Shown here in pieces: positions 11,930-17,992 of a stretch of DNA of 34,551 nucleotides. The position numbers and the translations under genes were made by a program. This DNA is from Actinomycetota bacterium (GTDB taxonomy: Bacteria > Actinomycetota > Acidimicrobiia > Spongiisociales > UBA5794): positions 1 through 34,551 of the forward strand of contig JAADIG010000037.1 in assembly GCA_013151445.1 (NCBI GenBank). Direction: 5' to 3'. The notes beneath the pieces are model-generated. The model was not told where the DNA came from and ran no database searches. It was given only the letters and a program-made list of their open reading frames with translations. How positions within the stretch are numbered: the stretch's first letter is position 1; each line of letters begins with the position of its first letter.

Positions 11930-12709
11930 ATGCCTCAACCGAATGATTCGCGCCATGGATCAGCCACGATCGACGTCACCGAGTTCGATGCGGTCGTCTT
12001 TGACATGGACGGTGTTGTCACCGATACCACTGCCGCCCATACGGCGGCCTGGAAAGAAGTCTTTGACGAGTTCCTGGTGAGGGTGGTTGGTCCCGACGTC
12101 GACCGGTTCGATCCTGTGGCGGACTACCTCGAGTTTGTTGACGGTAAGCCACGGTACGACGGCGTACGGGCCTTTCTGGCGTCTCGTGGAATCATGCTCG
12201 ACGAGGGGCGACCCGGCGATCCTCCGTCGGCTGACACCGTGCACAGTCTTGGCAACCGGAAGAACCAATCGTTCCTTGCGCGACTCTCCGCATACGGCGC
12301 GGATTCGTATCCTTCGACGCTGCGCCTCCTTGCCGAGCTTCGCCGGGTCGGCATATCGACTGCTCTGATCACCTCCAGTAGGAATGCGAGTGTCGTGCTC
12401 CAGGCCGCGGACGTCGATGTGTCGTTCGACGTCGTCATCGATGGGGAGGTTGCCGCCGAACGGGGTCTACCGGGGAAACCATCACCAGCCGTGTTTCTCG
12501 CCGCGACCGACGATCTCGGCATTTCAGCGGTGAGGGGAGTTGTCATCGAGGATGCCATTGCTGGCGTCGCCGCGGGCCGCATGGGAGGTTTCGGTCTCGT
12601 CATCGGTGTAGCGCGCCACGACAACGTCACTGACCTTCTCAACGCCGGTGCACATGTGGTCGTCGACGACCTTGCTGCCGTTTCCGTCGTGAGTTGTGGC
12701 TCTCGTTGA
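11930..12709 (+). CDS. pgmB: Beta-phosphoglucomutase (HAD superfamily)
   Basis: Predicted to convert beta-glucose 1-phosphate, the GH65 product, to glucose 6-phosphate through an aspartyl-phosphate. The 259 residues begin with a short polar extension, then FDAVVFDMDGVVTDT (nucleophile Asp25, acid/base Asp27). A cap domain follows, then LITSSRNA (motif II Ser/Thr), a GKPSPAVFLAA Lys (motif III) and the metal-binding VVIEDAIAGVAAG (motif IV). The N-terminal HAD sequence resembles the HAD half of actinobacterial HAD-GH65 fusion proteins, here split into separate genes (family knowledge). It is the last clear gene of the operon, 45 bases after the second permease. Its stop codon sits inside an inverted repeat. 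Confidence 0.9.
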   Translation: MPQPNDSRHGSATIDVTEFDAVVFDMDGVVTDTTAAHTAAWKEVFDEFLVRVVGPDVDRFDPVADYLEFVDGKPRYDGVRAFLASRGIMLDEGRPGDPPSADTVHSLGNRKNQSFLARLSAYGADSYPSTLRLLAELRRVGISTALITSSRNASVVLQAADVDVSFDVVIDGEVAAERGLPGKPSPAVFLAATDDLGISAVRGVVIEDAIAGVAAGRMGGFGLVIGVARHDNVTDLLNAGAHVVVDDLAAVSVVSCGSR

Positions 12710-12750: not shown

Positions 12751-12777
12751 GGCACCGGGAGGTAGCAGATGAGTGAC

Positions 12778-12783
12778 TACAGT
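12778..12783 (+). promoter_or_regulatory. Leaderless-type -10 box (TACAGT) of the selenoprotein gene
   Basis: TACAGT ends 7 bases before the ATG at 12791, the same geometry as at the FKBP and lnt genes. A competing signal is GGGAGG at 12757-12762, which could serve an in-frame GTG at 12773. Confidence 0.4.
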
Positions 12784-12790
12784 GCCTGGC

Positions 12791-13051
12791 ATGAAGATGA
12801 CACTGGAATACTGCGCGGCCTGACACTACACAGACCGTGCAGTTCGCATGACACAGGGTTTGCTCGACGAGTTCGAGCACAACATCGACGACTTGACGCT
12901 GATCCCATCAAAGGGTGGTGTATTTGAGGTCACCCTTGGCGACACCTTGGTCTACTCGAAGATCGAAACGGGACGCCACGCCGAGTATGAAGAAGTTGCT
13001 CAACCGATCCGTGAGATCCTCGGAAGGTCAGCTCCCGAGTCGACCGACTAG
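12791..13051 (+). CDS. SelW-like (Rdx family) selenoprotein with in-frame TGA = selenocysteine
   Basis: Read with TGA 12821-12823 as selenocysteine, the frame gives an 86-residue SelW/SelT/SelH-family thioredoxin-fold protein. Its N-terminus is MKMTLEYC, followed by the redox motif CAAU (Cys8, Sec11) in the usual place after the first beta strand, a helix (RAVRMTQGLLDEF), and the family signature IPSKGGVFEV followed by LVYSK. The TGA falls exactly where CxxU/CxxC is expected, and the frame stays open to the TAG at 13049-13051. A candidate SECIS hairpin follows the TGA. Ordinary gene calling would start at ATG 12848 and lose the active site. The role is unknown but probably thiol redox. The stop overlaps the next gene's GTG by one base. 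An N-terminal extension from GTG 12773 is possible. Decoding needs selA, selB, selC and selD elsewhere. Confidence 0.82.
12831..12862 (+). promoter_or_regulatory. Candidate bacterial SECIS element
   Basis: Lower helix 12831-12835 pairs with 12858-12862, and upper helix 12836-12840 pairs with 12846-12850 (one G-U in each). The apical loop AGTTC (12841-12845) has G at its second position, and a 7-base bulge lies on the 3' side. The loop begins 17 bases after the TGA. This agrees with the bacterial SECIS pattern as I remember it (loop about 16-37 bases downstream, G among the first two loop bases). Pairing was done by hand. Confidence 0.55.
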
Positions 13052-13950
13052 TGGCTGACACGCGTAGGGTTCTTTCGACATCTGAAGGGTCTCACACCGG
13101 GGACTTCCAACGCGGACACTGGGTGTTGGTTGCGCTTGTTGCTCTTGTTTTTGGGTCGGCATTCTTTTGGATCGCACTTTCGCTGCGGTCCTTCGACCCC
13201 CGTTTTCTGGCCTTCGGACGAGTGACCCTCGGCGCCGCGGCGTTGGCCCTGTTCCCTGCCGCTCGGCGGCGGATCGATCGTGAGGACTACCTGCGCATCG
13301 TGGTGGCGGGAGTCGTCGGCCAAGCGATGCCAGCAGTGCTCTTTGCTCTCGCCGAACAGCGCATTGAGTCGGCGCTGACGGGCATGATCACCGGTGCCGC
13401 CCCGATCACCGCTGCCCTATGGGCTGCCCTCTTCATGGCCAAGCTCCCTTCGAGGCGACGAGTGGCGGGTCTTGCGGTCGGCTCCGCTGGCATTCTGCTC
13501 CTGTCGCTACCGTCGCTGGGAGAGGGAGGGTCAAGCGCCCTCGGTGTGCTCTTTGTTGTCATCGCGATCTCGGGGTACGGACTTGCGGCGAACATACTCG
13601 TCCCGATGCAACCAAAGTACGGGGCGGCGGCGGTCATTCTGTGGGCCCTCATCACGGCGGTCGTTGTCCTCGCACCGCTGGGTATCCCGGCCTACACACC
13701 GGGTGCTTCGACCGAGTCGATCGTTGCTCTCCTGATACTTGGAGTCGTTGGCACCGGAGTCGCCCGAACGCTGCATGTGTCATTAATCGGCAGGGTCGGC
13801 GCCTCGCGTGGATCGGTCGTCGGTTATTTCCTTCCGCTTGTCGCTCTGTTCCTCGGAGTTGTGGTGCTCGACGAGAGTATCGGCCCGATCCAGATCATCG
13901 GCATGCTGGTGGTCGTACTCGGTGCCTACATTCTGAGTCGCAAGGATTGA
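13051..13950 (+). CDS. EamA/DMT-family transporter
   Basis: The 299-residue protein has about ten hydrophobic segments arranged as two EamA repeats (roughly residues 25-155 and 165-297), as in drug/metabolite transporters. Characteristic stretches are FGSAFFWIALSLRSFDPRFLAFGRVTLGA in the first repeat and SVVGYFLPLVALFLGVVVLDESIGPIQIIGMLVVVLGAYIL in the second. The substrate cannot be predicted. GTG 13051 shares its G with the stop of the selenoprotein gene and lacks a close ribosome site, so its translation probably depends on ribosomes that have read through the upstream TGA. Confidence 0.88.
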   Translation: MADTRRVLSTSEGSHTGDFQRGHWVLVALVALVFGSAFFWIALSLRSFDPRFLAFGRVTLGAAALALFPAARRRIDREDYLRIVVAGVVGQAMPAVLFALAEQRIESALTGMITGAAPITAALWAALFMAKLPSRRRVAGLAVGSAGILLLSLPSLGEGGSSALGVLFVVIAISGYGLAANILVPMQPKYGAAAVILWALITAVVVLAPLGIPAYTPGASTESIVALLILGVVGTGVARTLHVSLIGRVGASRGSVVGYFLPLVALFLGVVVLDESIGPIQIIGMLVVVLGAYILSRKD

Positions 13951-14692: not shown

Positions 14693-17600
14693 GTGGTAGG
14701 GAGGGGCGTTGCAACGATCCTGTTCACAGACCAGGTCGGATCGACCCGTCTTCGTGAGCTCATTGGCGATGACGGCGCTGACAAGATCGGTCGTGAACAC
14801 GACAGGATTGTTGCCGACGCCGTAACATCCACCGGCGGTCGAATTGTGAAGAATCTCGGCGATGGTGCCCTTGTCGTATTCGATTCCTCTGTCGATGCGA
14901 TCACTGCCGCACAACGGATTCTTGAGGGCGTCAATGTCTACAACCGTGATATATCCGAGGCCCATCGTCTGAAACTTCGCATTGGCATCAACGCTGGTGA
15001 GCTTGTTACCGGAGAAGATGGAGACGTATCCGGACTGCCGGTGGCTGTGGCATCGCGTGTCTGTGAGATTGCGGGTGCGTCGCAGATTGTCGTCACGGGG
15101 GTTGTCCGTTCGCTTGTCGGCAGGCGAGCAAAGTTCGGATTTCAGCCCCTTGGACCGTATCAACTCAAGGGTGTCGTGGAGCCCGTGGAACTGTGGACGG
15201 TCGGTGCGGCGGTCGTCGCGGAGACGCAGTCAGCGGAGACGGTGATCCCGTTCCCGGAGTTTCTTCGTCGTGGTGTTCCTCGACTGCTGGTCGGGCGTGA
15301 GAAGCAGGCGGCGGCGATCGAGACGGCATATGGGGCGGCCACTGACGGTGTCAGGTTTGCGGTAGTCATCGGCGAACCGGGAATCGGCAAGACCGCTTTG
15401 GTATCAACATGGTGTCGCGAGGCTGTCGAGCGTGGTGCGACCATCGTCGGAGGACGTTGCACTCCCGACGCGGCGTTACCGTATCAACCTTTCATCGAGA
15501 TCGCACGTGCGGTTCTTGGCGCACGCCCGGGGTTAATTGCGGACCTTGGCCCGGCGTCGGGAAATGTCGCCCAACTCGTGCCGGGCGTTGTCACTCAGGT
15601 GACCCTACCTCCGCCGGTCCAGGCGGACCCTGACACCACTCGATACTTGATGGCGGAAGCATTTGCGCGGCTTCTACGAGCGGACGCCGCCGGTCTCCCA
15701 GTGGTTGTTGTACTGGATGACCTGCACTGGGCGGATGAGCACTCACTCGGGGTGGTTGCCCACCTCGCGCGATACGCAGACGATCTGGCGCTGCTGCTCA
15801 TCGGAACGTACCGCGACACCGACCTGGTGCGCAATCATCCGTTGCCTCAACTCCTCACCGACCTGAGGCGCGAACGCCGACTGGTGCGGATCCCGGTTCC
15901 TCGCCTCACCGAGAGCGAGGTCGGTGAGCTCATCGCCGCCCGTTTCGGTGCCGAGGCTCCTGAAGCGGTGGTGGACTCCATCTCGGAGGAAACCCAGGGG
16001 AACCCGTTCTTCATCGAGGAAATCACCATGCATCTTGAGGATGAGGGGGCGATCGACGCACATGGTCAGTGGATTTCGGAGGTCCCCATTGAGGAGTACG
16101 GAATTCCCGAAGGGGTGCGAGACGTCGTCGGGCGGCGTCTCGACAGGTTGGGGGACAACGCCAATGCAGTTCTCGAAGTCGCGGCCGTCATCGGACCCAC
16201 TTTCTCCATCGATGTGGCGGGATCGATCGCGGGTCTTGATGAGGGGCAGATCGACGAAGTAGTGACCGCGGTGGTGAGTGCCGGTATCTTCGAGGAGGGC
16301 ACCGGCCCGGAGGAGTTCGTGTTTACTCACGCCCTCATACGACAGACGCTCTACGACGGATTGGCAACGAGGCGACGAACTCGGTTGCACCGGGGTATCG
16401 GCGAGGTGTTCGAAAGTCGTGGCAGCCATCCTGGTGTGGTACTTCACCATTGGCTTCATGCGAATGATCCGACGCGAGCATTGGCAGCAACTGTTGATGC
16501 GGCGTCGTCGGCACAAAGAACCTCGGCGGGGATCGATGTGCTGGCGTACCTCGAACTCGCGCTGGACCTATGGGACGACGCTACTGATCCGGAAGGGACG
16601 GTTGGCAGCTCCCACGCCGACCTGGTGCTCCGCGTGCTGGATTCCTACAGCGATTTCGGTGATCCGCGCGGTCTGGCCATCAGCCTGGTCGAGGCCGAGA
16701 TTGCACGCGTCTCCCCGACCGATACAGCAACCTTGAGTTTGCTTCACTCGGCATTGGCGGGCCAGTACTGGGTGAAGGGGCGCAACGGGGACGCTCTGGC
16801 GGCCCATCTTGAAGCTCTTCGCCTCATCCCGGATGATTCGCCGAGTGAGGAGCTTGTTCAGGTTCTGGGGAGCTACGCCGCCCACCTCATGCTGGCGGGG
16901 GACCTTGACGAGGCGATACGGATCGGGGAGCGGGCCTTAGCGGTCGCTAGCGCTCTCGGTATCGCACACGACACTGCCGACATTTCACGTGCCGGAGCGG
17001 CTCGGTCACGCGCGGTTGGCGCCCTCGCGACTGCGTATGGCAACCGCGGAGACATTGAAACATCTGACCGCTACTTCGATGAACTGCGCCAGGAAGCTCA
17101 AAACAATGGTGATTCCCGCTCGCTGCTTCTTGGATACACCAACCAGGGGACCGTGTGTGGCGTTACTGGGAAGCTAACGAAGTACTTGCAGATGTCCGAT
17201 GAGGGAGCGACTGTCGCTGCCGAGCTTGGCCGAGATCGGTGGCAGGCGATTCTCCTCACGAATGCCTTCGAGGCATTGTTTGGACTCAGCAGATGGGAGG
17301 AGGCCGAAGATCGGTTGCGAGCCGTCCCGCCTGCTGACACACGGGACAAGCCGGAACTCGCGCGGGTCATGTCCGTGTTAATCCTGGCTGTCGAACGCGG
17401 TGACGGGGAGTTGGCGGACGGCGCATGGGAAGAACTCGCGAGAGTGGATATTTCCGATCTGGATCCCGAGATCAGAGGACCGAGTTGGGCGGCTCGGCTC
17501 TCACAACATCGGTGGGGAGGTGATCTCGCCGCGGGGTATGACGTCGCGTTGGAAGCCCTTCCGCTGCTCGGTGACACCAATTGTTGGTCGGCAGCGGCGT

Positions 17601-17992
17601 TGCTCGCGGGCAGTGCTATCGAACTGGTGGCGGATGCTCTCGAGTCTGGAGCGGGCGATGCCACATGGCTGGAAGCGGCTCGTAGCTGGCATGACATGTT
17701 TGTCAGGAACAATCCACCCGCCCTGTTTTCGGCGGAACTTTGGGCCACAGCCACGGCGGACCTCGCCAGGGCGGGTGGTGAGAACGATCCCGAACTCTGG
17801 AGAAAAGCTGTTCGAGCCTGGGGCGGCCAGGGGTACTACGAGGCGAAGGCCAAGTGGCGTCTCGCCCAGGCCCTCGCGGAGACTGATCCAGCGCATGCAG
17901 ACATCGGGCCTTTGCTCGACAGTGCCGCGGTCGTCGCCGACCGTCTGCGTGCACGCCCATTGAGTGAAGCGATTCACCAAGCGCGACCCTAG
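14693..17992 (+). CDS. Class III cyclase-like / AAA ATPase / TPR protein (cyclase site degenerate)
   Basis: The 1099-residue cytosolic protein has three parts. Residues about 5-170 are a class III nucleotidyl cyclase domain keeping FTDQVGST (metal Asp13), GGRIVKNLGDG (Lys53, Asp57) and Arg122. The positions for the adenine-binding Asp and transition-state Asn read Leu115 and Ala118, so catalysis is doubtful. Residues about 195-480 are an AAA_16/STAND ATPase with a LVGRE lead-in, Walker A GEPGIGKT (227-234) and Walker B VVVLDDLHWAD (about 338-348). The rest is alpha-helical and TPR-like. GTG 14693 has no good ribosome site but gives the family's natural N-terminus (VATILFTD). It is a signalling protein whose target cannot be inferred. 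Confidence 0.88.
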   Translation: MVGRGVATILFTDQVGSTRLRELIGDDGADKIGREHDRIVADAVTSTGGRIVKNLGDGALVVFDSSVDAITAAQRILEGVNVYNRDISEAHRLKLRIGINAGELVTGEDGDVSGLPVAVASRVCEIAGASQIVVTGVVRSLVGRRAKFGFQPLGPYQLKGVVEPVELWTVGAAVVAETQSAETVIPFPEFLRRGVPRLLVGREKQAAAIETAYGAATDGVRFAVVIGEPGIGKTALVSTWCREAVERGATIVGGRCTPDAALPYQPFIEIARAVLGARPGLIADLGPASGNVAQLVPGVVTQVTLPPPVQADPDTTRYLMAEAFARLLRADAAGLPVVVVLDDLHWADEHSLGVVAHLARYADDLALLLIGTYRDTDLVRNHPLPQLLTDLRRERRLVRIPVPRLTESEVGELIAARFGAEAPEAVVDSISEETQGNPFFIEEITMHLEDEGAIDAHGQWISEVPIEEYGIPEGVRDVVGRRLDRLGDNANAVLEVAAVIGPTFSIDVAGSIAGLDEGQIDEVVTAVVSAGIFEEGTGPEEFVFTHALIRQTLYDGLATRRRTRLHRGIGEVFESRGSHPGVVLHHWLHANDPTRALAATVDAASSAQRTSAGIDVLAYLELALDLWDDATDPEGTVGSSHADLVLRVLDSYSDFGDPRGLAISLVEAEIARVSPTDTATLSLLHSALAGQYWVKGRNGDALAAHLEALRLIPDDSPSEELVQVLGSYAAHLMLAGDLDEAIRIGERALAVASALGIAHDTADISRAGAARSRAVGALATAYGNRGDIETSDRYFDELRQEAQNNGDSRSLLLGYTNQGTVCGVTGKLTKYLQMSDEGATVAAELGRDRWQAILLTNAFEALFGLSRWEEAEDRLRAVPPADTRDKPELARVMSVLILAVERGDGELADGAWEELARVDISDLDPEIRGPSWAARLSQHRWGGDLAAGYDVALEALPLLGDTNCWSAAALLAGSAIELVADALESGAGDATWLEAARSWHDMFVRNNPPALFSAELWATATADLARAGGENDPELWRKAVRAWGGQGYYEAKAKWRLAQALAETDPAHADIGPLLDSAAVVADRLRARPLSEAIHQARP

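Follow-up and report, generated by a model that had tools for sequence, protein, structure and literature searches.

The window analysed here (34,551 nt from contig JAADIG010000037.1 of an Actinomycetota draft genome of 3.07 Mb in 159 contigs, 98% complete) very probably contains a gene for an 86-residue SelW-like (Rdx) selenoprotein whose UGA at codon 11 would be decoded as selenocysteine (Sec). Judging from the sequence, we place the probability of this reading at about 97%; the reading frame, the protein family, the selection acting before and after the TGA, the genes of the Sec machinery and a conserved hairpin all point to it. The frame runs on the forward strand from ATG 12791 to TAG 13049–13051 with a single in-frame TGA at 12821–12823 (Table 1; translation MKMTLEYCAAUHYTDRAVRMTQGLLDEFEHNIDDLTLIPSKGGVFEVTLGDTLVYSKIETGRHAEYEEVAQPIREILGRSAPESTD), and its Rdx domain contains neither a frameshift nor a second stop. 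The TGA closes a redox motif that opens with the Cys codon TGC at 12812. A preliminary description had proposed that the frame continues upstream of ATG 12848 through the TGA and supplies the missing N-terminus of a SelW/Rdx protein, which is borne out by an Rdx model match extending across the TGA. An Rfam search of the window and a plasmid search returned no match.

Table 1 Features of the selW-like locus and its immediate surroundings (positions in the window).
Feature	Position	Strand	Remarks
TACAGT, −10-like box (TANNNT), candidate leaderless-mRNA promoter	12778..12783	+	7 nt before ATG
Predicted selW-like selenoprotein gene	12791..13051	+	86 codons plus TAG stop; Sec = codon 11
CxxU redox motif TGC GCG GCC TGA (CAAU, residues 8–11)	12812..12823	+	Sec codon = TGA 12821–12823
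SECIS-like hairpin CGUGC-AGUUC-GCAUG	12836..12850	+	Starts 12 nt after UGA
67-residue remnant without active site, expected from standard gene calling	12848..13051	+	ATG 12848 start
EamA-family transporter gene	13051..13950	+	GTG start overlaps final base of selW stop codon

Family membership was assessed with curated protein models. Searched in all six frames with the Pfam Rdx model (PF10262), the genome gave one site only, at 66.3 bits (cut-off 22.6), with a single TGA inside a match that covers model positions 2–74 of 74. With Cys put at the TGA, the protein scores 73.7 bits against PF10262 (cut-off 22.6) and 60.7 bits against TIGR02174 (CXXU_selWTH; cut-off 34.2). Full-model matches above the curated cut-offs, together with a CxxU motif near the N-terminus, place it among the Rdx (SelT-SelW-SelH) proteins. 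Its best solved relatives are Cys-type Rdx proteins, among them Atu0228 (2FA8; E 3e-11) and SAV_2001 (3DEX; E 2e-9), which are homologous along the domain and whose CxxC aligns with the CAAU of the window protein, in agreement with the earlier placement of the TGA within a CxxC/CxxU redox motif. Both carry Cys where the window protein would have Sec, so recoding is unneeded there. The window protein should be a small redox protein with a thioredoxin-like fold and, by homology, Sec 11 together with Cys 8 would alternate between a reduced and a selenenylsulfide state.

Conservation of the TGA was followed through 119 relatives' genomes, from the same genus up to the same order. Rdx matches were present in 71 of these genomes (72 matches), and 71 of the 72 contain exactly one TGA; the lone exception is a fragment at a contig edge (G066). 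Seventy genes of the order were read out, the window's included, and the TGA occupies the CxxU column in all 70. A pattern taken from elsewhere in the protein, scanned against GTDB contigs, gave 80 loci, mostly titled as Actinomycetota or Chloroflexota, with TGA in the CxxU column in 80/80, a figure that says nothing on the frequency of Cys forms, the pattern being biased toward close relatives. A wider draw from Actinomycetota shows Sec forms to be common and Cys forms to occur in several families, and 16 distant homologues have a Cys codon in the CxxU column. The UGA is thereby aligned to the Cys of homologues, within a frame that is conserved on both sides: upstream of the TGA dN/dS is 0.10 and downstream 0.11 (26 independent close pairs), and strong purifying selection acts on both.

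The preliminary description had held that a random nonsense mutation would rarely land at this position, had suggested aligning the Rdx family, and had named random stop codons or frameshifts in close relatives as the mark of a pseudogene. In the relatives each Rdx match that spans the motif has one TGA, the Sec column is kept, with Cys appearing in more distant homologues, and the frame is intact. If the TGA were a nonsense mutation or a sequencing error, the gene would be a pseudogene in decay that once encoded a Cys-type Rdx protein; a standard stop codon does break the frame, and Cys versions do occur in other actinobacteria. However, the same TGA recurs in all relatives' genes read out, across the order and into another phylum, with constraint on either side of it, which makes decay vanishingly improbable, and we rejected it on the conservation of the TGA together with the intact frame, and on the presence of the Sec machinery.

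It had also been foreseen that annotation would give a 67-residue fragment lacking the active site, and ATG 12848 is indeed the default ORF start. This ATG lies in frame, and one could suppose that the short protein beginning there is the functional product and that the part before the TGA is merely a leader. Yet constraint on the ten codons ahead of the TGA is as strong as on the remainder of the gene (dN/dS 0.10), and these codons provide strand 1 and the motif Cys. Moreover, several relatives have Ala or Thr in place of this Met, so ATG 12848 is not a conserved start, and we consider a functional short protein extremely unlikely. With the 86-residue selenoprotein as the predicted product, an entire actinobacterial lineage would have a small selenoprotein of which standard gene calling leaves a fragment without an active site, and the SelW-like protein is likely to be missed when these genomes are annotated.

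The search for selA, selB, selC (tRNA-Sec) and selD in the same genome, proposed at the outset, recovered all four genes: a tRNA-Sec whose anticodon is TCA (68.6 bits, cut-off 47), selB (329.5 bits) and selA (418.8 bits) adjoining on contig 153, and selD (380.3 bits; locus L016), which itself contains one in-frame TGA (HGAGUACK). At least four further redox genes of this genome (L188, L189, L192 and L194 among our loci) carry a TGA in an active-site motif of the CxxU or UxxC type. They comprise an AhpD-type protein with TGA in a CHYU motif, an AhpD-related protein with CFYUT (213 bits against NCBIfam NF041238, cut-off 175, a model named (seleno)protein) and two others: a Prx/ResA-like protein, encoded on the contig that also carries selAB, has WUPYC, and a TlpA/thioredoxin-like one has WUSVC. 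Because at least six genes have a UGA at a likely Sec position, selenium use looks like a real trait of this genome. Across the relatives, selW and tRNA-Sec were both present in 60 genomes, selW only in 11, tRNA-Sec only in 33 and neither in 15 (Fisher p = 0.07), a tally over incomplete genomes in which all 11 with selW only are at most 92% complete; the co-occurrence is not significant and was therefore not counted as support. As a side observation, ten genomes (G050, G054, G056, G064, G070, G080, G084, G089, G096 and G117) show a second, weaker match to the tRNA-Sec model (about 49–56 bits), which may represent an atypical tRNA-Sec or else a different long-arm tRNA.

An open frame with a recoded UGA is not enough to identify the residue: the codon might be reassigned to another amino acid or read by a near-cognate tRNA, and position 11 would then not be Sec. 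Against this stand the full Sec system in the genome, Cys as the homologous residue, the neighbouring HAD gene, which terminates at an ordinary TGA (12707–12709), and a SECIS-like hairpin that follows Sec-type genes only. We judge such a reassignment very unlikely and rejected it on conservation and the presence of the Sec machinery.

The hairpin downstream of the UGA has a 5-bp stem and an apical loop at 12841–12845 (AGUUC) with G in second place, 17 nt from the UGA. A bacterial SECIS model specifies a loop of 3–9 nt, a stem of 4–16 bp, a G among the first two loop positions, a UGA-to-loop distance of 16–37 nt and a minimum free energy of −7.5 kcal/mol or lower (PMC13188914). The window hairpin agrees with this model in loop size, stem length, G position and distance (PMC13188914); taken alone it folds at −5.6 kcal/mol, the weakest of a set in which 65 of the 68 relatives' sequences lie at or below −7.5, and the wider downstream stretch of the window folds at −9.6 kcal/mol in a competing fold. 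A codon-preserving shuffle of single hairpins gave a weak signal per sequence (mean z 1.6), and the argument rests on the fixed position of the hairpin and on its paired changes.

Both are seen across the order. In 66 of the 68 distinct sequences the loop of the best candidate hairpin lies at the identical place; Cys homologues have no candidate hairpin at a fixed position, its location differing between them. Within the stem, the third base of an Arg codon (T12838), which can change without affecting the protein, has as its partner the first base of the codon four codons on (A12848). This pair is T-A in 58 and C-G in 10 of the 68 and is never mismatched, and the C-G form appears in separate places of the tree (for instance the L018/L051 pair, L074, and a group with L081 and L082). 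The covariation score of the whole helix is 0.192 against a shuffled mean of 0.128 (0/500 shuffles as high); this control is inflated by relatedness, and the repeated compensatory changes carry more weight than the shuffle count. The loop GU is present in 68/68, though these bases also encode an invariant Val. A conserved hairpin with compensatory changes is as expected of a bacterial SECIS element, a role we predict for the one in the window. Comparing other Actinomycetota and Chloroflexota (L093, L108, L182–L185) with the window lineage (L017–L085), we additionally observed that the loop mostly lies about 4 nt farther from the UGA in the former.

The start of the gene is most likely ATG 12791, as already assumed in the first description, and the upstream sequences of the relatives agree with it. 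A TANNNT box beginning 12–14 nt before the start codon is found in 58/68 relatives (L017–L085), compared with 0–4/68 in control windows, and Shine-Dalgarno-like 5-mers occur upstream in 10/68. Chloroflexota homologues show the opposite, with a TANNNT box in 0/37 and a Shine-Dalgarno sequence in 28/37. A TANNNT box about 12 nt before the start is a mark of leaderless genes, which are common in Actinobacteria (PMC3160421). We also considered GTG 12773, which has GGGAGGT (12757–12763) 9 nt ahead of it; ATG 12791 is preferred because relatives share this ATG and the TANNNT box. From this pattern the selW mRNA of the window is probably leaderless, and we think it fairly likely that selW mRNAs of Acidimicrobiia in general are leaderless, in which case the UGA would be only the eleventh codon of the transcript and the hairpin would fall inside its first 60 nucleotides. 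If this is true, SelB-dependent decoding would take place almost directly after leaderless initiation, a situation of which we found no description in the open-licence literature. Should the arrangement be confirmed, it would make a simple test case for SelB action right after initiation.

The gene neighbourhood gave no lead to a functional partner among the loci compared. The EamA gene after selW is shared only with the genus-mate among these loci; elsewhere the neighbours of selW vary, and none is conserved beyond the genus. In Anaerolineae, the gene directly downstream of selW often belongs to the class I Trp/Tyr-tRNA synthetase family (PF00579, matched by 13/40 downstream genes scanned, at L110, L114, L115, L120, L126, L128, L130, L132, L141 and others), an adjacency that may be mere neighbourhood. 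Farther along the window, positions 14693–17992 encode a large protein that combines a guanylate/adenylate cyclase domain with an AAA ATPase domain and resembles TOMM kinase/cyclase fusions at a score below that model's cut-off.

We propose that the ribosome would initiate at ATG 12791 of a probably leaderless mRNA and meet the UGA at codon 11, where SelB with Sec-tRNA(Sec), held by the hairpin at 12836–12850, would insert selenocysteine in place of termination. Translation would then continue to TAG 13049–13051 and yield a thioredoxin-like protein whose Cys-Ala-Ala-Sec pair would serve as a thiol/selenol oxidoreductase. SelW-like CxxU selenoproteins form a major bacterial family (PMC1088965, PMC2398784) and are among the commonest bacterial selenoprotein families (PMC2398784), which accords with the preliminary remark that they are known in some bacteria. 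That remark went on to call Sec machinery in an actinobacterial lineage notable; the machinery is present, but Sec decoding in Actinomycetota is not new, since by 2006 the Actinobacteria had already been counted as a phylum rich in selenoproteins, with 12 selenoprotein families listed (PMC1794560). Because both the decoding in this phylum and the SelW-like family were already known, the find is less surprising than first held. We regard the window gene as a firm further example of the known SelW-like selenoproteins, as seen from the open-licence literature; an earlier report in this lineage may exist.

A close parallel is SelW of Campylobacter jejuni (CJnc60), likewise a small, unannotated protein in which UGA is read as Sec (PMC11955535). 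It belongs to another phylum, and its full-length translation is confirmed by ribosome profiling and proteomics (PMC11955535); the NCBIfam equivalog model for Campylobacter scores the window protein at 69.1, below its cut-off of 88. With the bacterial SelW-like selenoproteins at large (PMC1088965, PMC2398784, PMC1794560), the window gene has in common its family and size, the CxxU motif and, following the UGA, a SECIS-like hairpin. Nothing essential differs between them; what sets the window gene apart is its host, an Acidimicrobiia-type member of the Actinomycetota, and an mRNA that is probably leaderless.
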